Source: Acidocella aminolytica 101 = DSM 11237 (lineage in GTDB: Bacteria > Pseudomonadota > Alphaproteobacteria > Acetobacterales > Acetobacteraceae). Taken from it: a stretch of 64,000 bases of DNA. Position 1 is the stretch's first letter. Each line of letters opens with the position of its first letter. Both the position numbers and the translations under genes were made by a program. Positions 4,849 to 61,672 of this stretch are shown here, in pieces. The DNA lies in contig NZ_FQVJ01000021.1 in the NCBI RefSeq assembly GCF_900129125.1, positions 1-64,000 of the forward strand, written 5' to 3'. A model generated the notes under the pieces. That model had not been told where the DNA came from. It worked only from the letters and a program-made list of their open reading frames with translations, and did not search any database.

Positions 4849-5589
4849 ATGGCGTTCCTGACCCTGGACAGCGTTGTAAAATCCTATGGCGAACGCACGG
4901 TCCTACGAGGTATCGATCTTAACGTGGAACGACACCAAGTGGTGTGCCTCATCGGCGGCTCAGGCAGTGGAAAGTCTACACTCCTACGCTGTATTAACGC
5001 ACTAGAGGACATCAACGAGGGTGAAATTAGGCTGGACGGCGACATTATTTCTGGTGAAGGCATCAACGTTGATCTACTGCGCCGTAACATCGGCATCGTC
5101 TTTCAAAGCTTCAACCTGTTTCCTCATATGAGCGTTCTTAAAAATGTGACACTTGCGCCAATTAAAATACATGGAATTGACGCAGCAACAGCCCACGAAC
5201 GAGGCATGGAACTTTTACGTCGCATCGGACTTGGCGACAAGGCGAATGCCTACCCAGACCAGCTTTCCGGCGGCCAGCAACAACGTGTCGCAATCGTTCG
5301 CGCCATGGCTATGGATCCGAAGGTGCTGCTTCTCGATGAAATCACCTCGGCACTTGACCCCGTTCTCGTGGGCGAGGTCCTGGATATCGTACGTGAACTC
5401 GCGAATGATGGGCTTACAATGTTGCTTGCCACGCACGAAATGTCGTTCGCACATGAAGTCGCCGACACGATCTGCTTCCTTCATGAGGGCGTCATTCTCG
5501 AACAAGGTCCCCCGTCCCAAGTCCTGGATGCTCCACAGGAAGCGCACACCAGAGCATTTCTCAGCCGCGTGGGGCGCCTGCGGCAGTAG
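4849..5589 (+). CDS. ABC transporter ATP-binding protein (polar amino acid/amine type)
   Basis: A 246-residue ATPase that powers the importer. Walker A is GGSGSGKST, the Q-loop region reads [13 protein letters not shown], the ABC signature is LSGGQQQR, Walker B is [13 protein letters not shown] and the switch histidine lies in LATHEMSFA. It begins two bases after the permease stop codon, which indicates translational coupling. The length and motifs are those of GlnQ/HisP-type ATPases, and nothing is missing. Confidence 0.92.
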
Positions 5590-34437: not shown

Positions 34438-34540
34438 AGCCTGCGTGGGAAGGGATAAAAATTATATATGTAAAGCTGACCAGCAGCATAAAGACGGCAT
34501 AAAATTGGAGCAGCCGTTCCGGGAATATCAACGTAGTCAT
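34436..34540 (-). CDS. Possible 34-residue membrane peptide at the head of the kdp operon
   Basis: A 34-residue frame beginning MTTLIFPERLLQFY with one hydrophobic helix (about residues 14-29) ending in IPSHAG. It has no clear ribosome binding site, so start and reality are uncertain, but it is in line with the kdp genes, is composed like a membrane peptide, and its stop codon lies within the hairpin that covers the next ribosome binding site. It could act as a coupling leader ORF for the kdp message. Confidence 0.4.
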   Translation of the reverse strand: MTTLIFPERLLQFYAVFMLLVSFTYIIFIPSHAG

Positions 34541-34597
34541 AGCGGTCAAAGAGGCTATTCAATCCACCTTATGACCGGAAAACATTTATCCGTTACA

Positions 34598-34729
34598 TTC
34601 ATGCCGCTTCATTGACGGATACATAACGAGATTCACGACGGACTAATGACGAAATCATAGCGAACAATAGACGGTAATATGTCTGATCATTGTCGAAATA
34701 TCGTCGCATTTCATGCCAGAACATTGACG
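34598..34729. repeat. Two-copy split repeat upstream of the plasmid-type gene block
   Basis: TTCATGCC-N4-CATTGACG occurs at 34598-34617 and at 34710-34729. The outer eight bases on each side are identical and the central four differ (GCTT and AGAA). Several GACGG pentamers lie between the copies (34614, 34637, 34670). The repeats sit in the roughly 300-bp gap between the kdp operon and the HTH/ATPase block, so they are candidate binding sites for either. Confidence 0.5.
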
Positions 34730-34843
34730 TTCAATTGGCAGGATCGCTAGAATCGCTGCGTCATGCTCCCGGAAATCGGCCTTGACGCCCTTGCTCAAGC
34801 CGCCTCTACAGGGCGCTGAACCCGCGCGCCGCTCGTGATCTGG

Positions 34844-35242
34844 ATGTGCGAGCGCCACGACGAGTTCGCCGCCCTCCTCGACCGGCAGGGCGTCAATTGG
34901 AACCGGATCGCCGCTTTTTTCTCAGAAAACGGTTATGCCGGTGCCGGCGGGCAACCTCTGACCCCAAGAACCGTGCGGTCCTATTGGGGGCGGGCGCGGA
35001 AACTCATCGCCCAGCGACGAGCCAGGGAACACGATCAACCAGCCACCACAGACGAATGTCAGGCCCTCGGCGGCCCCGCCGCGCCAACAGAGCCGGCGGC
35101 ACCGGCAGCATCTAAATTTCAACCATCATGGATGAGAAATGAGGACCGGGGTGTTTCCGCAGCAGAACGCCAGCCCCTCGGCGATCCAACTGCTCCCGCC
35201 AATCCTGACGATCCGAAATGGAGTGGCGATAAATCCCGATAG
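34844..35242 (+). CDS. Small HTH-like DNA-binding protein of a plasmid-type module
   Basis: A protein of about 132 residues from the ATG at 34844 (a GTG at 34835 would add three residues). The N-terminal 60 residues look like a helix-turn-helix or ribbon-helix domain: IAAFFSENGYAG followed by LTPRTVRSYWGRARKLIAQ. The rest is Pro/Ala/Asp-rich and probably flexible. It is the first gene of a tight four-gene run followed after nine bases by a ParA-like ATPase. The layout is reminiscent of plasmid stability or mobilisation operons such as stbABC, where a small DNA-binding protein comes first; this is analogy, not demonstrated homology. Confidence 0.6.
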   Translation: MCERHDEFAALLDRQGVNWNRIAAFFSENGYAGAGGQPLTPRTVRSYWGRARKLIAQRRAREHDQPATTDECQALGGPAAPTEPAAPAASKFQPSWMRNEDRGVSAAERQPLGDPTAPANPDDPKWSGDKSR

Positions 35243-35251
35243 GAGAATTTG

Positions 35252-36142
35252 ATGACTGAGGCCCCCTCATCAGAAAAGAAGCCCATCGGCACGCAAAAAC
35301 CCGCACCCCCCGTATTCCGCGCCGGTAGCTCGACCGCCAGGCTCAAGCCGGCGGAAATCAAGCCACTGCTGACCAGCGAGCAAACCCGCTCCGAACCCGT
35401 GGCTCAGGGCCTCGATCTCGCCGATCGACCCAAGATCATCCTGACGGCCGGCCGGGGCAAAACCGGCAAAACCACCTTCCTGCGCTGGATCGTCGAGATG
35501 GCAACTATGGAAAATAAAGCCCCACTTTTGGCCGATATCGATCCAACCAATGCAACCTTCTCGACTTTTTTCGAGGATGTTTCCAGACCAGATACATTCA
35601 ACCAGACCGCTGTCCGCGACTGGCTGCAAGACTTCATGGAATATGCCATCAAGGAAAAGCAAACCGCCGTCATCGATCTGGGGGGTGGAGATACGATCCT
35701 GCGCACCATAGCCGCAGAAATGCCCGGCTTCGATGCAATGATTGAGGAGGCGGGCCTGGCCATGGTGATGTTCTACCTCGCCGGCCCGCATCCCGAGGAT
35801 TTAACCCCGGCCGCCACGCTCGGCGCATTGGGCTTCAAGCCTCGCGCTCGCGCGTTCGTGCTCAATGAAGGCGTGACACCGCCGGGGCAATCGCGCGATC
35901 AGGTATTCAGCCGCGTGATCTCCTCCAACGTCTATCGCGATGAAACAGCGGACGGTGCCCTCACCCTCTGGATGCCGCGCCTGCACGCGGCCGAGGCGGT
36001 CGAGGCTCGCACCGCGAGTTTCGTCGCCGCACGGGACGGTCAGACCGAACCGCCGCTCGGGGTGTTCAACCGCTCGCGGGTAGGCCACTGGCTCAAGGCG
36101 ATGGATGCACAATTCGCCGGCGTGAAATCGTGGATGCCATGA
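35252..36142 (+). CDS. ParA/StbB-like P-loop ATPase
   Basis: A 296-residue protein from the ATG at 35252, which has AGGAG seven bases upstream. The Walker A motif TAGRGKTGKTTFLRW sits around residues 63-77, a deviant ParA-type P-loop, with ADIDPTNATFSTFF as the switch region after it and AVIDLGGGDTILR as a Walker-B-like strand. Such ATPases serve plasmid partitioning, stability or mobilisation. It is flanked by the small HTH protein and by a coiled-coil membrane protein whose start overlaps its stop (ATGA). The exact subfamily cannot be settled by eye. Confidence 0.7.
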   Translation: MTEAPSSEKKPIGTQKPAPPVFRAGSSTARLKPAEIKPLLTSEQTRSEPVAQGLDLADRPKIILTAGRGKTGKTTFLRWIVEMATMENKAPLLADIDPTNATFSTFFEDVSRPDTFNQTAVRDWLQDFMEYAIKEKQTAVIDLGGGDTILRTIAAEMPGFDAMIEEAGLAMVMFYLAGPHPEDLTPAATLGALGFKPRARAFVLNEGVTPPGQSRDQVFSRVISSNVYRDETADGALTLWMPRLHAAEAVEARTASFVAARDGQTEPPLGVFNRSRVGHWLKAMDAQFAGVKSWMP

Positions 36143-36843
36143 GCGAGGCCCTCGATCAGAGCGAGACAGAGGCCGCGATCCGCGCCGCTCAAGCGGAGCT
36201 GGACCGGGCCGAACAGCTTGCCCGGCTCGACAATGACCCCACCACTCAAACGCTCCTCGCGCTCCGGGTGTTCCTGGGCTCGACCGCCGCCATTACCGCC
36301 GATCAGCGCCGCGCTATGGCTGAGCACAGCTTGCATGTCGATCGGGATTTCAGCGCCGTGCGCCAGGCGCGGGACGGCTTGGCGCAAACCATCGATCAAG
36401 CCTTCAAGGCCGCGAAAGCCCAGGCAGAGGCGGCGCATGCGGATTTGTCGCGCCAGTTCGTAGCCTCCTTTGCTCAAGCGGCTGAACAGCGCCTCAAGGG
36501 CATGTCGCGGTGGGTATGGTGGCGAACGCTCGCCTCGTGCGCGGCGCTGGCAATCGTGATCCTCGCCCTTGGGTTCGGCCTAGGCTACTGGCGCGGCAAC
36601 GCGGCCGGGTACAGCCAGGCCGCCGGGACGATTCACGCTACCGGGGCCGTTGGGCAATCCGTCCTCGCCTCGCAAGGCCCGGCTGGCTTGGCGCAATGGC
36701 ACCAGCTCATGCGCGATAACGCCATCATCGACACGATGAAATCCGATTGCACCGGCAAGAACGTGGCGCATCAGGACGGCCGCACGGCTTGCCATCTCTG
36801 GCTATGGACCACGCCAAATGTCGCCTCGGCCGCGCACGGGTAG
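36139..36843 (+). CDS. Coiled-coil protein with one membrane helix (plasmid-type module)
   Basis: A 234-residue protein from the ATG at 36139, which overlaps the ATPase stop by four bases. Residues 1 to about 120 are charged and heptad-like (AAIRAAQAELDRAEQLARLDND; FKAAKAQAEAAHADLS). A single membrane helix follows at about 133-158 (TLASCAALAIVILALGFGLG), then about 75 residues, probably outside, with two cysteines (SDCTGKN and TACHLW). No enzymatic motif is seen. Its place in the operon suggests it is a membrane partner of the ATPase. Confidence 0.65.
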   Translation: MSEALDQSETEAAIRAAQAELDRAEQLARLDNDPTTQTLLALRVFLGSTAAITADQRRAMAEHSLHVDRDFSAVRQARDGLAQTIDQAFKAAKAQAEAAHADLSRQFVASFAQAAEQRLKGMSRWVWWRTLASCAALAIVILALGFGLGYWRGNAAGYSQAAGTIHATGAVGQSVLASQGPAGLAQWHQLMRDNAIIDTMKSDCTGKNVAHQDGRTACHLWLWTTPNVASAAHG

Positions 36844-36847
36844 CGGG

Positions 36848-37252
36848 ATGGAGGAGGATTTTACCCCTCCCCCGGATGCGCCGGGCCGCTCGGCTGGCTT
36901 CGCCTCCCAGCTCGGCCGCGCTTTGCTCGGCCTGCTCCGGGGCGCCTTGCGCTTTCTGGTGGTAGTTGTGCTCGACGTGCTCATTCTCGCGGTGCGGTTC
37001 GTGCTCTGGTTCCGCCGCCTCCTGTTCTGGCTGGGCTTCTTCTCCGCTCTATCCTGCATTTTGAATTATGAGGTCCACAAGCTCCGCTTGGCCGCCTTCG
37101 CACTCGGCGCTGGCATCCTCATGATGGCGCTCTCACGCGCCAGCCTGCTCCTCAATGACCGGCTGCGTTGCTGGCAACTGCAACTCCATGCATGGGCGCA
37201 GGGCTGGCCGGTGAAGCGGTATGCGTTCACCGTTTTGCCCCCTCGGCGTTGA
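36848..37252 (+). CDS. Small multi-helix membrane protein (plasmid-type module)
   Basis: A protein of about 134 residues from the ATG at 36848 (an upstream in-frame ATG at 36818 is less likely because it overlaps the preceding gene). It has a Pro-rich N terminus (EDFTPPPDAPGRS), two or three hydrophobic helices around residues 35-60, 62-75 and 88-105, and a basic C terminus. It begins four bases after the previous stop. No family is recognised. The four-gene run ends here. Confidence 0.6.
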   Translation: MEEDFTPPPDAPGRSAGFASQLGRALLGLLRGALRFLVVVVLDVLILAVRFVLWFRRLLFWLGFFSALSCILNYEVHKLRLAAFALGAGILMMALSRASLLLNDRLRCWQLQLHAWAQGWPVKRYAFTVLPPRR

Positions 37253-37293
37253 TGGAGCTGGCCGCTTAATGCCTAACCAGAAGCCGGATGAGT

Positions 37294-37315
37294 ACATGTA
37301 AACATGTTTTCATGT
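37294..37315. repeat. Cluster of ACATG/CATGT half-sites
   Basis: Within 22 bp there are three half-sites: ACATGT at 37294-37299, ACATGT at 37302-37307 and CATGT at 37311-37315, separated by AA and TTT. Adjacent pairs are mirror-symmetric, as expected of a dimeric DNA-binding protein. It follows the plasmid-type block directly and could be an operator or partition-like site. Confidence 0.4.
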
Positions 37316-37324
37316 TGGTAATGC

Positions 37325-37423
37325 CTAAATCGATACAATCCAGTCCACCAGTTCCGAAAGTGGCGCATTGAGTCTGCACGCGCGCGCAAACTGGCGCATC
37401 GCGATAAAGTCGGGAGCCGGCAT
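37325..37423 (-). CDS. Possible 32-residue ORF or gene remnant
   Basis: A short frame beginning MPAPDFIAMRQFARACRL and ending DWIVSI. Composition is protein-like (amphipathic helices) and GGGGAAG stands just before the ATG, though too close to be ideal. It may be a real peptide or the surviving part of an HTH-type gene. No function can be given. Confidence 0.25.
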   Translation of the reverse strand: MPAPDFIAMRQFARACRLNAPLSELVDWIVSI

Positions 37424-37525
37424 CTTCCCCGTTAGATCTCAGTTGAAATTCACATGTCGATCAAAGGCGGTTGATGAGGTCACTAAATTTAGCAGACATG
37501 AGAAATATTCATCATTTGGTGGATT

Positions 37526-38167
37526 TCAATCTTGCTTTGATCCCGGCGGACGTGATGAAGCCACAGGTAGCTTCCAGCCCCGATAGAGTGCCATCAGACG
37601 TAGGAACACGCATAATGAAATCCCCACTAAGGCACAAAGTATAGGTTGCAACCCAACCGAACTCCCGACAACCACGACCAACGCGCCTGCGAGTGCAGCC
37701 ACAGCATAAACATCTGCGCGCAACACTGTAGGAACTTGTGCGGTTAACATATCGCGTACCATGCCGCCGCCAATCCCACTGATCATCCCGAGAACGGCCG
37801 CCATTGGCCAGTTAATGCCATAATCCAAAGCCTTTTGTGTTCCAGCTACAGCAAAGACACCAAGCCCGGCTGCATCAAAGAACTGCACGGGGTGCTGAAG
37901 ACGATAAAATGATTTAGAGAAGCGGAAAACCAGCAATCCGGCGACGACAGCGAGTGCCAAATTATGCCAATTCGCAATTGATTCGGGTGGAATCGCCCCG
38001 ATGAGTTCGTCGCGAGCGATTCCACCTGCAACGGCGGTCACAAAGGCCAAGACAAGAACGCCGAATAAATCCATGTCGCGTTCGACACCTAGTGCCGCAC
38101 CGCTGATCGCGAACACAAACGTGCCAATCAGATCAAGGATCTTGACCAATAAAATTGCCGAATTCAT
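37526..38167 (-). CDS. TRIC-type (UPF0126, YadS/YicG) membrane channel protein
   Basis: A 213-residue integral membrane protein with about seven helices. Two copies of the UPF0126 unit are visible: DLIGTFVFAISGAALGVERDMDLFGVLV...GGIARDEL and the second DAAGLGVFAVAGTQKALDYG...GGGMVRDML, with the paired GG(I/M)xRD motifs typical of the family. Members are trimeric intracellular cation-channel homologues. The start at 38167 lies just beyond the stop of the amidohydrolase gene; an earlier start at 38203 would overlap it. The role in this operon is unknown. Confidence 0.85.
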   Translation of the reverse strand: MNSAILLVKILDLIGTFVFAISGAALGVERDMDLFGVLVLAFVTAVAGGIARDELIGAIPPESIANWHNLALAVVAGLLVFRFSKSFYRLQHPVQFFDAAGLGVFAVAGTQKALDYGINWPMAAVLGMISGIGGGMVRDMLTAQVPTVLRADVYAVAALAGALVVVVGSSVGLQPILCALVGISLCVFLRLMALYRGWKLPVASSRPPGSKQD

Positions 38168-38172
38168 CCCGG

Positions 38173-39468
38173 TTAGGCCTTTGTTATATTCGGTGCCAGC
38201 CAATTGCTTGCGGCGACGAGCATCGCTTCAATGCCGGTACTCAGCGTCGGATGGATCACGGGTGCAAAATCCGGTGCGTGGTTTGCAGGCAGCTCATCTA
38301 CTTTGCCGGCGATTTCAGCGGCTGCGAACTTGTCAGGATCGATTCCGCCAACCACCCAAAATACGACCGGCACGCCCCAGGCCGCTCCGAACAAGCCGAA
38401 ATCCTCACTGGCGGTGGCTGGTTGAACTTCATGTACGCGGGCGGTCCCAAAATGCTCTTCTAGGGCGGCGGCGACGGCCCGTGTTGCCGCCTCGTCGTTA
38501 CGCGTTACAGGATACTCGCTAAGAACGGAAAATGCGGGCGGCTTTGATGCTCCCGAGGCTGCTGCCTCCGCCTCCAATATCCGCTTTACTGCGGCGAGTA
38601 CCCGGTTACGTACCTGTTCTTTAAAGGTTCTGACATTAAGCCGTAGCATGGCTTGGTCTGGAATTACATTCTCGCTTAACCCCGCCTTTAGGGTCCCGAC
38701 CGTGACCACCGCGCTATCTGTCATAGCCACTTCCCGTGACACCACGCTCTGCAGCCGCATGACGGCGGAGGCCGCCATAACAACGGGATCAATGCTTTTC
38801 TGCGGCATCGAGCCATGCGCGCCGCGTCCGAAGAGGGTTACCTCCCAACTGTCTCCGGCCGAGAGCATCGTACCAGTCCGCCAACCTATCTCTCCCGCGC
38901 TAAGCGGCATTACATGCTGTGCTAGTGTTACATCGGGCCTGGGAAATCGCGTCACCATGCCATCTGCGATCATGGCACGGGCGCCCTGAGCGGTTTCTTC
39001 GCCAGGTTGGAACACCGCCATCACCGTGCCGCGCCAAGCGCTGCGGTTTTCAGCTAAAATCCTTGTAGCTCCCATTAGCCAAGCCACATGCATATCGTGG
39101 CCGCACGAATGCGCAATCGAGGTGGGCTGATCAAAGCGGTCAGTGCCCGTTGCCTGGCTGGCATAGGGCAGATCAGTGCTTTCCTTGATCGGCAGAGCAT
39201 CCATGTCGGCACGCAACATGACGGTTGAGCCTTCTCCATTGCGGAGCAGTCCAACGACACCAGTGCCCCCGACCTTCTCGGTAACCTCAAAACCATGCTG
39301 CTTCAGCCACGCAGCGGCAATGTCCGCGGTTCGGTACTCCCGCATGGACAATTCCGGGTTAGCATGTAGGTCTTTGTAAATTTCCTCCAGTTCGAACAGC
39401 AGCTTATCGGACGGGCCGGGCAACAGAGCCGGTGGCAGGGGATTTTTATCGGAATCAACAATCATCAT
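38173..39468 (-). CDS. M20-family metal-dependent amidohydrolase (hippurate/N-acyl amino acid hydrolase type)
   Basis: A 431-residue M20D peptidase-like amidohydrolase. It has RADMDALPI, SCGHDMHVAWLMGAT and FQPGEETAQGARAMI, which provide metal ligands and the catalytic Glu, then ATASEDFGLF near the end. Family members release amino acids from N-acyl or indole-type conjugates. A proline-rich N-terminal extension of about 20 residues is present but no signal peptide. It overlaps the small CxxC gene by 14 bp and is followed by the TRIC gene. The natural substrate is not evident. Confidence 0.88.
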   Translation of the reverse strand: MMIVDSDKNPLPPALLPGPSDKLLFELEEIYKDLHANPELSMREYRTADIAAAWLKQHGFEVTEKVGGTGVVGLLRNGEGSTVMLRADMDALPIKESTDLPYASQATGTDRFDQPTSIAHSCGHDMHVAWLMGATRILAENRSAWRGTVMAVFQPGEETAQGARAMIADGMVTRFPRPDVTLAQHVMPLSAGEIGWRTGTMLSAGDSWEVTLFGRGAHGSMPQKSIDPVVMAASAVMRLQSVVSREVAMTDSAVVTVGTLKAGLSENVIPDQAMLRLNVRTFKEQVRNRVLAAVKRILEAEAAASGASKPPAFSVLSEYPVTRNDEAATRAVAAALEEHFGTARVHEVQPATASEDFGLFGAAWGVPVVFWVVGGIDPDKFAAAEIAGKVDELPANHAPDFAPVIHPTLSTGIEAMLVAASNWLAPNITKA

Positions 39469-40945: not shown

Positions 40946-41027
40946 GTCATCCTCGTGTTTGCTTGTAAGATGAATGTCTGCTCTACTAATGCGCCATGCA
41001 ACCGACCTAATTAGGGGAGGAATGAGC

Positions 41028-41783
41028 ATGACAACCTCTGCGGGTACTAAAGCCAGGGTTGATGCCGTAAATGCCTCAGCCACTGGCATTGTAGAAGAAC
41101 TTGCCCGAGCGAAGGACCTTGCCTCACTTGGCGAGATGTTCGCCGCCCGTATCTCGCCTCTGGGCTTTCTGAATGCAGGCTACCTTCGCATTTTCGGCGC
41201 GCGGCAGTTCCACGGAGCGAAATATCTGTTCGGCGGAACGACACCAGGATGGTCGGAACGCTATCAACAGCAGCGCTTCTGGGTTGACGACCCCGTTTTT
41301 GCGCAGTGCTGCCGAAGCACAGCCGCGTTTACCCTGATCGAAGTTGCTGGACGTTCGGACAAAGGCATACGGATTCTTTCTGAAAGCAGAACTCTCGGCC
41401 TCTTTGACGGCTTCGTTTCTCCAATCCGCGCGGGCTATGATGAGGTAGGCTTCGTCCTGCTTAGCTCTGCGACCTCCATCGAACCGAGCGACCGGGAGCG
41501 CTTCCTGATTCACGGTATGTGCGAAACCTATGCTCGGGCGGGCTTGGCGCTGGTGCCAGCCGAGCCAGAGCCGCGCGCGCTAACCCGACGAGAGGTCGAA
41601 TGCCTGAACTGGGTTGCCGTCGGCCGCAGCGACCAGCAAATTGGTATGATCCTTGGGCTCTCCGCCAACACGGTCCACGGGCATGTTGAGTCCGCCAAGT
41701 ACAAGCTGGATGCGAACTCCCGTGCACAGCTTGTGCTGAGAGCTGTCATGGCCGGTATCATCCGTTCAGACCCGTCAAGGTAG
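41028..41783 (+). CDS. LuxR-family regulator with autoinducer-binding domain (solo)
   Basis: A 251-residue protein with an N-terminal autoinducer-binding-type domain (about 20-165, with WSERYQQQRFWVDDPVF and the closing GFVLLSSA) and a C-terminal LuxR helix-turn-helix (about 185-245: LTRREVECLNWVAVGRSDQQIGMILGLSANTVHGHVESAKYKL). The start at 41028 has GGGGAGG seven bases upstream. There is no luxI synthase in the window, so this is a solo that may sense a foreign or non-lactone signal. It is divergent from the SDR gene and the likely regulator of that set. Confidence 0.88.
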   Translation: MTTSAGTKARVDAVNASATGIVEELARAKDLASLGEMFAARISPLGFLNAGYLRIFGARQFHGAKYLFGGTTPGWSERYQQQRFWVDDPVFAQCCRSTAAFTLIEVAGRSDKGIRILSESRTLGLFDGFVSPIRAGYDEVGFVLLSSATSIEPSDRERFLIHGMCETYARAGLALVPAEPEPRALTRREVECLNWVAVGRSDQQIGMILGLSANTVHGHVESAKYKLDANSRAQLVLRAVMAGIIRSDPSR

Positions 41784-60799: not shown

Positions 60800-61672
60800 G
60801 TGGGGTATGCGCCGTTAAACGCTCTAAAGGTATTTGACGCGGTGTTCCGGCATGGAACTTTCTATGGCGCTGCCAAAGAGTTGAGCGTCACGCCATCAGC
60901 AATCAGTCATCAGATGCGGCATCTTGAAGAATGGCTCGGGATAGGCCTGTTCGAGCGGCGTGGAAAGCAGCTTAAGTTTGACGCTCACGCCATTTCGTTG
61001 GCCGGCGCTCTGCGCCTCGCGTTTTCTGACATTGACCGCGCTTGCCAGGAGGTGCGCCGAAAAAACAAAAACCAGCAACTAACGGTTGCGGTTATTCCCT
61101 CGGTTGCGATTTGCTGGCTGATCCCCAGGCTCCCGCTCTTTCGCGAGCTTGAGCCAAAAATCGACCTTAAAATTATTTACGCCATATTTGGCCATGAGAT
61201 TAACTTTGAGGACGTTGATATCGCAATTATTTATGCGAGAGACATGCCCGTTGTGCCGAAGATGCATGCGGTCCAAATCCTGTCCGGCGCGAGCGCTCCA
61301 GTTTGCAGCCAAAGTTTTATGGACAGGCACCCAAGATTGAACGACGCCGGCGATGTTGCCCGCTTCAATCTACTGCATGATACAGATACGGGAGGCTGGC
61401 GCGCCTGGCTTGGCGATGACTACCCGGTGAAGACCGGCGCGGCGGCGGACATCATCTTCGAGGATTTCAACCTGCTGCGAGCCGCTGTGCTTGCGGGCCA
61501 AGGGATTGCGCTTTGCGCCACGTCCATCATCCAGGACGATCTGGAGACCGGCCGCCTCGTTAAATTATCCGATCGTACGATCAACAATGAGTATAATTAT
61601 TTTGCGGTATGCCGGGAGTCGCTCGACGGCGGCCCTGTCAGTATTTTTTTCGAGTGGTTAAGGCATCTCTGA
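60800..61672 (+). CDS. LysR-family regulator (GcvA-like), 3' end replaced by an IS end
   Basis: A 290-residue LysR regulator starting at a GTG with AAGGAG six bases upstream. The helix-turn-helix (about 5-64) reads LNALKVFDAVFRHGTFYGAAKELSVTPSAISHQMRHLEEWLG; the C-terminal effector domain has the GcvA-type phrases VAVIPSVAICWLIPRLPLF, VDIAIIYARD and AAVLAGQGIALC. The last codons (after FFEW) are encoded by the left end of the IS5 remnant, which supplies LRHL and the TGA stop. Only a few native C-terminal residues are lost, so it is probably still functional. It is the evident regulator of creatinine use. Confidence 0.85.
   Translation: MGYAPLNALKVFDAVFRHGTFYGAAKELSVTPSAISHQMRHLEEWLGIGLFERRGKQLKFDAHAISLAGALRLAFSDIDRACQEVRRKNKNQQLTVAVIPSVAICWLIPRLPLFRELEPKIDLKIIYAIFGHEINFEDVDIAIIYARDMPVVPKMHAVQILSGASAPVCSQSFMDRHPRLNDAGDVARFNLLHDTDTGGWRAWLGDDYPVKTGAAADIIFEDFNLLRAAVLAGQGIALCATSIIQDDLETGRLVKLSDRTINNEYNYFAVCRESLDGGPVSIFFEWLRHL

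Follow-up and report, generated by a model that had tools for sequence, protein, structure and literature searches.

A probable displaced copy of an oriT-adjacent, stb-type plasmid operon beside the kdp operon of Acidocella aminolytica

RESULTS

Gene content and layout of the block

We analyzed a 64,000-nucleotide stretch of the Acidocella aminolytica 101 = DSM 11237 genome (contig NZ_FQVJ01000021.1, positions 1 to 64,000; hereafter the window) and focused on a block of four genes that lies beside the kdp operon. A sequence-only reading had described this block as a plasmid-type stability or mobilisation unit, derived either from a large plasmid or from an integrated plasmid fragment. The proposed gene set was borne out: four same-strand open reading frames (ORFs) at 34.8-37.25 kb code for a helix-turn-helix (HTH) protein, a ParA-like ATPase, a coiled-coil membrane protein and a small membrane protein. 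The coordinates of all features are given in Table 1.

Table 1. Features of the four-gene block (positions in the window)
Feature	Position	Strand	Basis
Segment homologous to plasmid leading regions	34596..37334	+	blastn: match to plasmid contig C83 starts at 34596; matches to plasmid loci L001/L002 end at 37333/37334
About 12 degenerate 11-bp direct repeats, stbDR-like	34597..34745 (end approximate)	+	Autocorrelation against dinucleotide shuffles
Promoter-like site TTGACG-18-TAGAAT	34724..34753	+	Located in front of the operon
stbA-like HTH gene, interrupted	34763..35242	+	Translation compared with the 196-residue C83 homologue; StbA-family profile match
stbB-like gene, ATPase of ParA/ParF fold, 296 residues	35252..36142	+	Walker A GRGKTGKT; 98% identity to the C83 copy over the matched stretch
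Third gene (stbC/traM position), coiled-coil single-span membrane protein	36139..36843	+	Start as annotated in relatives; GTG 36130 also possible
Fourth gene, small membrane protein, 134 residues	36848..37252	+	Most likely start, by comparison with plasmid locus L017
ACATGT/CATGTT cluster	37294..37318		3' of the operon

The first product is an HTH protein whose family matches the StbA family at the profile level. Its listed start, GTG 34835, was not borne out. The gene begins at ATG 34763 and is interrupted at codon 19 by an in-frame TGA (34817-34819), where the copy on the co-resident plasmid contig C83 has CGA (arginine). GTG 34835 is in frame six codons past the TGA and represents a possible restart giving 135 residues. 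The C-terminal part of the gene contains a repeat unit of ~111 bp, present once in the window (35140-35240) and twice in C83 (61626-61841). The genes had also been described as packed with overlaps. This applies to the ATPase gene and the third gene, which overlap by 4 bp (ATGA) or 13 bp; a 9-bp gap separates the HTH and ATPase genes, and the fourth gene most likely starts 4 bp after the third. A simple hydropathy scan gave one hydrophobic span for the third protein and two or three for the fourth, in agreement with the initial description. Rfam and tRNA scans of the window returned nothing, indicating neither a known RNA element nor tRNA-linked integration.

Identity of the encoded proteins

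None of the four proteins scored above a curated cut-off in Pfam or NCBIfam, and none was matched at E 0.01 in PHROGs or PADLOC. For the ATPase, the P-loop GRGKTGKTT picked out initially is present in the sequence, and the structural model (mean predicted local distance difference test score, pLDDT, 85; 35 sequences) has a predicted ParA/ParF-type fold. The closest structures are ParF (Z 15.9, root mean square deviation 2.7 over 188 residues), MipZ (15.6) and Soj (12.9). The ATPase thus belongs to the ParA superfamily, and the StbB label rests on context. Its Walker A motif, R-G-K-T-G-K-T, corresponds to neither published StbB form (KGGXXK[T/S] or SGXXGK[T/S]), with the ParA/ParF fold and the P-loop both present. 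When family profiles were compared with each other, the ATPase family matched the R388-type StbB family at E 7.3e-7 over 148 columns. The TraL model (NCBIfam NF010461) was rejected for the window protein, which reaches 14.8 bits against a curated cut-off of 360.

The HTH protein, encoded first in the operon, is of StbA type: its family matches the R388 StbA family with a probability of 82% (E 1.1e-5, 51 columns), compared with E 0.51, 0.83 and 0.21 for unrelated control pairs. Matches of the families to the single R388 StbB and StbA sequences are weak in hhalign (probability 5-24%), and the HTH protein has no Pfam hit. Its fold model is poor (pLDDT 65), the DNA-binding domain of StbA (7pc1) is a weak match (Z 4.2), and a Foldseek search with this low-confidence model found nothing below E 1.9, an absence that is no evidence against a fold.

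Related operons on conjugative plasmids

The ATPase has 93 matches among 72,556 plasmid records, mostly from Acetobacteraceae. Six of them are 84-91% identical to the window protein and come from five Acidiphilium plasmids and one Acidithiobacillus ferrooxidans record. In the Acidiphilium plasmids, a 113-residue gene and a MobF relaxase run divergently from the operon; the operon is divergent from MobF relaxases on Acetobacter and Roseomonas plasmids as well. The Acidithiobacillus record (L019) has no annotated relaxase at the operon. The Stb half of this plasmid, from strain YQ-N3, is as in Acidiphilium cryptum pACRY03, pointing to either transfer between classes or contamination.

The sequence-only reading had suggested looking for the block beside relaxase or rep genes. 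A scan of 84,980 species genomes yielded 43 loci. The N-terminus of a MobF relaxase is encoded in 23 of them, in every case on the opposite strand and upstream of the operon; nine of the remaining 20 loci have less than 3 kb of upstream DNA. The place of the third gene is taken by a downstream ORF in 41/43 loci. The fourth gene is more restricted: only six of the plasmid records match its product, all of them Acidiphilium-type relatives, and no match was found among C83 ORFs of at least 100 residues. No relative was found among viral contigs. The close copies on plasmids beside MobF relaxases uphold both the stability/mobilisation reading and its proposal of an integrated plasmid fragment.

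Within the same genome, the ATPase has matches on four contigs: the 66.5-kb window contig itself (C66), C83 (98%), C23 (57%) and C45 (45%). C83 is a 62.5-kb plasmid contig that closes into a circle through 78 bases shared by its two ends; it codes for a MobF-type relaxase, a VirB4-type protein of a type IV secretion system (T4SS) and a separate classical ParA with the motif KGGTGKT. Its operon lies 3' of an origin of transfer (oriT) with an R388-like nic, opposite to the MOBF relaxase, in the order nic, 11-bp array, promoter, HTH gene, ATPase gene and gene for the coiled-coil single-span protein. The family has a three-gene operon in the leading region, on the 3' side of nic and beside the relaxase. 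The window copy lacks both nic and relaxase: TrwC-domain relaxases were found on C83, C45, C23 and C59, and none on C66.

Of the 20 loci without a relaxase N-terminus, four (L102, L105, L111 and L117) were inspected ORF by ORF. The divergent genes of L105 were assigned by Pfam to a VirB4-type protein, a transglycosylase, an autoinducer synthase and a LuxR regulator. An autoinducer synthase and a LuxR-type regulator are located between the T4SS genes and the stb-like operon in L105 (4.4-6.9 kb), and also in L102 and L117; quorum-controlled conjugation is likely in Acidocella plasmids. On the contigs of L105 and L102 (G009:C87, G023:C114, as matched by length and position) a TrwC relaxase is encoded ~16-17 kb away. 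The window, too, codes for a LuxR-type regulator with an autoinducer-binding domain (40974-41783), beside which no synthase was noticed. A second possible orphan operon is present at 8.0-9.4 kb of L111 (metagenome-assembled genome NGEE_A_bin7), where the ATPase and third genes adjoin an antitoxin-like gene and an integrase-like ORF (labels assigned by eye). L111 has no HTH gene match, repeat array or nic-like motif, and genome G013, seemingly the same genome, has no TrwC relaxase match. Finally, in pACMV2 (L001, 12001-20041) the stb-like operon is partly duplicated, with the second copy split around an IS5 transposase gene.

A predicted nic site and a breakpoint at its position

Each of seven Acidiphilium-type plasmid loci (C83 included) contains one GGTGCAATGGTCT, always on the same strand and the same side of the HTH gene. 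The equivalent site of R388, which agrees in position and orientation, reads GGTGCGTATTGTCT/ATAG, the slash marking what we take to be the nick position. In the genome of A. aminolytica the 14-base form of the site occurs a single time, on C83. In the wider family, 27 of 34 loci have the shorter motif T[TG]GTCTGT in the 600 bases that precede the HTH gene, compared with 1.75% of shuffled stretches. These loci comprise 15 of the 20 with a relaxase in the locus and 12 of the 14 without one. The motif is absent from the window block. The size of the TrwC site is known for R388 (PMC3264647, excerpts).

A comparison of plasmids from two Acidiphilium species bears on this assignment. pACMV1 (L017, predicted nic at 5245) and pACRY03 (L020, 4625) show no difference over the 2,000 ungapped bases that lead up to the predicted nic, and then diverge from the third base past it. 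By blastn, they are 99.98% identical over 4,630 bases ending at the nic point, with no alignment directly to the right of it. The pair thus represents a natural mosaic with its breakpoint at oriT (the predicted nic on C83 is at 61054). Since TrwC of R388 recombines and integrates DNA at nic, according to the relevant part of PMC3264647, such a divergence is as expected of relaxase-mediated recombination, and the nic assignment is independently supported by the position of the breakpoint. Relaxase-mediated insertion at nic was also considered as the origin of the window fragment and is not shown, as the fragment matches C83 only from 34596 onward, ~30 bases beyond nic.

Repeat array, promoter and downstream cluster

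Upstream of the operon, the sequence-only reading had recognized split repeats at 34598 and 34710. These do not stand alone: both turned out to be units of an array with an 11-bp period, the second overlapping the promoter and containing its -35 element. We propose the units as predicted binding sites of the HTH protein. The window array matches itself at lags 11, 22 and 34 (z 3.6, 3.1 and 4.3), with the maximum reached in 0/500 dinucleotide shuffles; the same test gave P 0.88 for a kdp control stretch. The stb region of R388, used as a positive control, showed lags 11, 22 and 33, as expected from its published repeats of 9-bp units with 2-bp spacers (PMC3098194). The arrays of C83, L001, L002 and L020 also exceed chance (P 0.002 or less, lag 11 z 3.7-5.9). 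Direct repeats with an 11-bp period upstream of stbA are therefore shared by the window, these four loci and R388, and other branches have 12- or 21-bp periods. The ATTGACG core of the promoter-like site is invariant in 7/7 aligned sequences.

The ACATG/CATGT cluster reported 3' of the operon is indeed present, as ACATGTAAACATGTT at 37294. The same pattern (exact, with a small wobble) is kept in four of six related plasmid loci (L001, L002, L017, L018) and is absent from L019, L020 and C83. It may be an operator or a recombination remnant.

Genomic setting of the window copy

In the closest relatives, kdp homology ends at 34504-34506, leaving ~90 bases before the plasmid homology begins. Beyond 34596-37334 we found no homology to plasmids. 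The flanks of the homologous segment (34480-34595 and 37335-37560) have no strong match in 30 genomes of the genus, only one weak match of 49 bp. No conserved chromosomal locus emerged that would be free of plasmid links: in 9/9 examined kdp loci of genus relatives the block is absent in front of kdp and other DNA is there, with L085, L086 and L090 having only ~0.1-0.6 kb of flank. Neither an empty insertion site nor the precise left junction could be located, since the sequence past the kdp end differs between relatives; the right flank likewise gave no site. The closest relative of the gene at 37526-38203 is located at a contig end.

DISCUSSION

Nature of the block

Taken together, the data make it highly probable that the window block is a displaced, partly decayed copy of an oriT-adjacent operon of the stbABC/traKLM type, as carried by MOBF conjugative plasmids of Acetobacteraceae, with a fourth, membrane-protein gene in addition. 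The fragment looks like a piece of plasmid leading region displaced to beside the kdp operon. The initial statement that this combination of genes could not be named can be withdrawn, as it is a divergent, displaced member of a known system type (stbABC of R388; traKLM-like in RP4).

Several observations weigh against this interpretation. The exact nic-like motif is missing from 5/20 relaxase-linked loci. In L017 and L018 the best lag is 11, yet P is 0.118 after lag correction. The repeat period varies across the family. Repeats were tested in 34 of the 43 loci, leaving aside three whose flank was too short and six that had no called HTH ORF. Among the 34, lag 11 is best in four, 12 or 24 in 18, 10 or 21 in seven and another value in five, and no further locus is added to the four by lag 22. 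Lag 11 reaches z 3 in 4/34 loci and in none of the coding controls; pooling lags 10-12 with their doubles was a post hoc choice, made after the data had been seen. With a single ordinary ParA, the ATPase profile gives a match as good as that with the StbB family (E 5.7e-7, 46 columns), and the ATPase sequence alone therefore does not single out StbB. The small divergent gene has no match to TrwA, nor does the third protein match R388 StbC, which is a weak criterion, as StbC is itself called an orphan without significant homologues in excerpts of PMC3098194. Finally, between the window and C83, dN is 0.009 and dS 0.033 for the ATPase gene, and 0.019 and 0.138 for the third gene (nonsynonymous and synonymous divergence, respectively). 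The resulting dN/dS of ~0.28 and ~0.14 suggests that these two genes are not plainly decayed, with too few changes to place the constraint in the window copy, on the plasmid, or in both.

It might be argued that C66 belongs to a large plasmid or chromid, and that the block is the stability locus of that replicon, its oriT half deleted or rearranged. Composition does not separate C66 from plasmid contigs, and the right half of it leans toward plasmid (probabilities 0.69-0.85 per 5 kb); the genome also has several relaxase-bearing contigs. However, the balanced accuracy of the composition classifier is only 0.83, and C66 has no relaxase. Moreover, of 58 C83 ORFs, those with matches on C66 are limited to the block genes and two generic P-type ATPases, and kdp is present in most genus relatives, preceded by other DNA. 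We regard this alternative as rather unlikely, though the best of those considered.

An ordinary parABS-type partition system with no tie to conjugation is improbable. The ParF/MipZ-like fold, the DNA-binding partner gene with iterated repeats and the equally good ParA match would all suit it. However, C83 already has a classical ParA, location of the operon 3' of nic, with the relaxase on the opposite side, is a conserved feature, and to our knowledge a third membrane protein is not part of parABS systems. The assembly is a draft of 109 contigs, so that the junctions could in principle be a chimera of plasmid reads with another contig. Yet the window copy has its own stop codon, fourth gene and repeat number in the HTH gene and is 96-98% identical to C83; it is therefore not misplaced C83 sequence, and a chimera is very improbable. 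That the ATPase might be a zeta-toxin-like kinase belonging to an addiction module can practically be dismissed: some plasmid records annotate homologues as 'zeta toxin family protein' and Pfam Zeta_toxin matches 5/12 members (E up to 0.01), but the window protein stays below the gathering cut-off of PF06414 (14.6 versus 22.3 bits), and has a ParF-type fold over the whole domain, and the context of the operon also speaks against a toxin.

Comparison with known systems

The closest known system is stbABC of R388 (IncW, MOBF11). The two share StbA and StbB similarity at the profile level and the same order (relaxase side, small gene, nic, 11-bp repeats, HTH gene, ATPase gene, third gene) on the 3' side of nic. 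In contrast to R388, the proteins described here are longer, the Walker A motif is GRGKTGKT instead of SGXXGK[T/S], the third protein shows no sequence relationship to StbC, and a fourth membrane-protein gene is added. R388 also has trwB between the relaxase gene and trwA, and the window copy differs further in lacking nic and relaxase and in the stop within stbA. By description in part of PMC3098194, traKLM of RP4 and the corresponding mob genes of pTF-FC2 are likewise oriT-adjacent trios of HTH, ATPase and third gene, to which weak TraL model matches in 3/12 family members may be added; RP4, however, is MOBP with the classical KGGXXK[T/S] motif. Systems of the parFG/parABS type resemble the operon in the ParF fold and in iterated DNA sites with a DNA-binding partner, whereas the operon is tied to oriT and the relaxase, and its host plasmid C83 has a separate ParA. 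What is new here is the displaced copy and the Acetobacteraceae branch to which it belongs, set apart by the motif GRGKTGKT, a third protein of another kind, a fourth gene and scores short of any curated family in the four libraries searched; the system type itself is known. A literature search on StbA/StbB, R388, oriT and Acidiphilium/Acidocella plasmids, judged by titles and abstract openings, found no publication describing this operon in Acetobacteraceae.

Proposed function and significance

In R388, deletion of stbA raises transfer ~50-fold and destabilises the plasmid, and deletion of stbB blocks transfer (Guynet 2011, PMC3098194, excerpts). By analogy, the operon probably steers plasmid positioning and transfer on the conjugative plasmids of this group. 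Comparison shows what an intact plasmid carries: a hairpin and a nic site, the 11-bp repeat array, the promoter and then stbA-stbB-stbC. These genes lie on that side of nic which is first to reach the recipient, across from a small gene and the MobF relaxase. The HTH protein would bind and coat the array, keeping plasmid copies in inheritance mode on the nucleoid and restraining transfer. The ATPase would work against it: together with its membrane partner, it may carry the bound plasmid to the membrane and the secretion channel and so lift the restraint. In the window copy the repeats, promoter, ATPase and membrane-protein genes are what is left, with a stop codon in the HTH gene and nic and relaxase gone.

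The window copy is likeliest a relic without cis function. Unable to act in cis on transfer, it could at most provide the ATPase or a restarted HTH protein acting in trans on C83. As a more speculative and unlikely possibility, the operon might be retained for such action, titrating or cross-controlling the positioning machinery of C83 and of incoming relatives; a former plasmid part would then serve the host side, either by modulating conjugative plasmids or as an incompatibility barrier against them. This idea draws on the near-identical repeat array and the 98% identity of the ATPase to that of C83, and on the TGA in stbA, which would leave StbB without its antagonist. Extra StbB gives higher transfer in R388.

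The results extend the little-studied stb type of plasmid positioning and transfer control from R388-like plasmids to plasmids of acidophiles and acetic acid bacteria, and yield testable nic and repeat sequences for them. They also provide an example of an stb-type operon stranded without its transfer origin. If the copy does act in trans, it would represent host-side control of conjugation.

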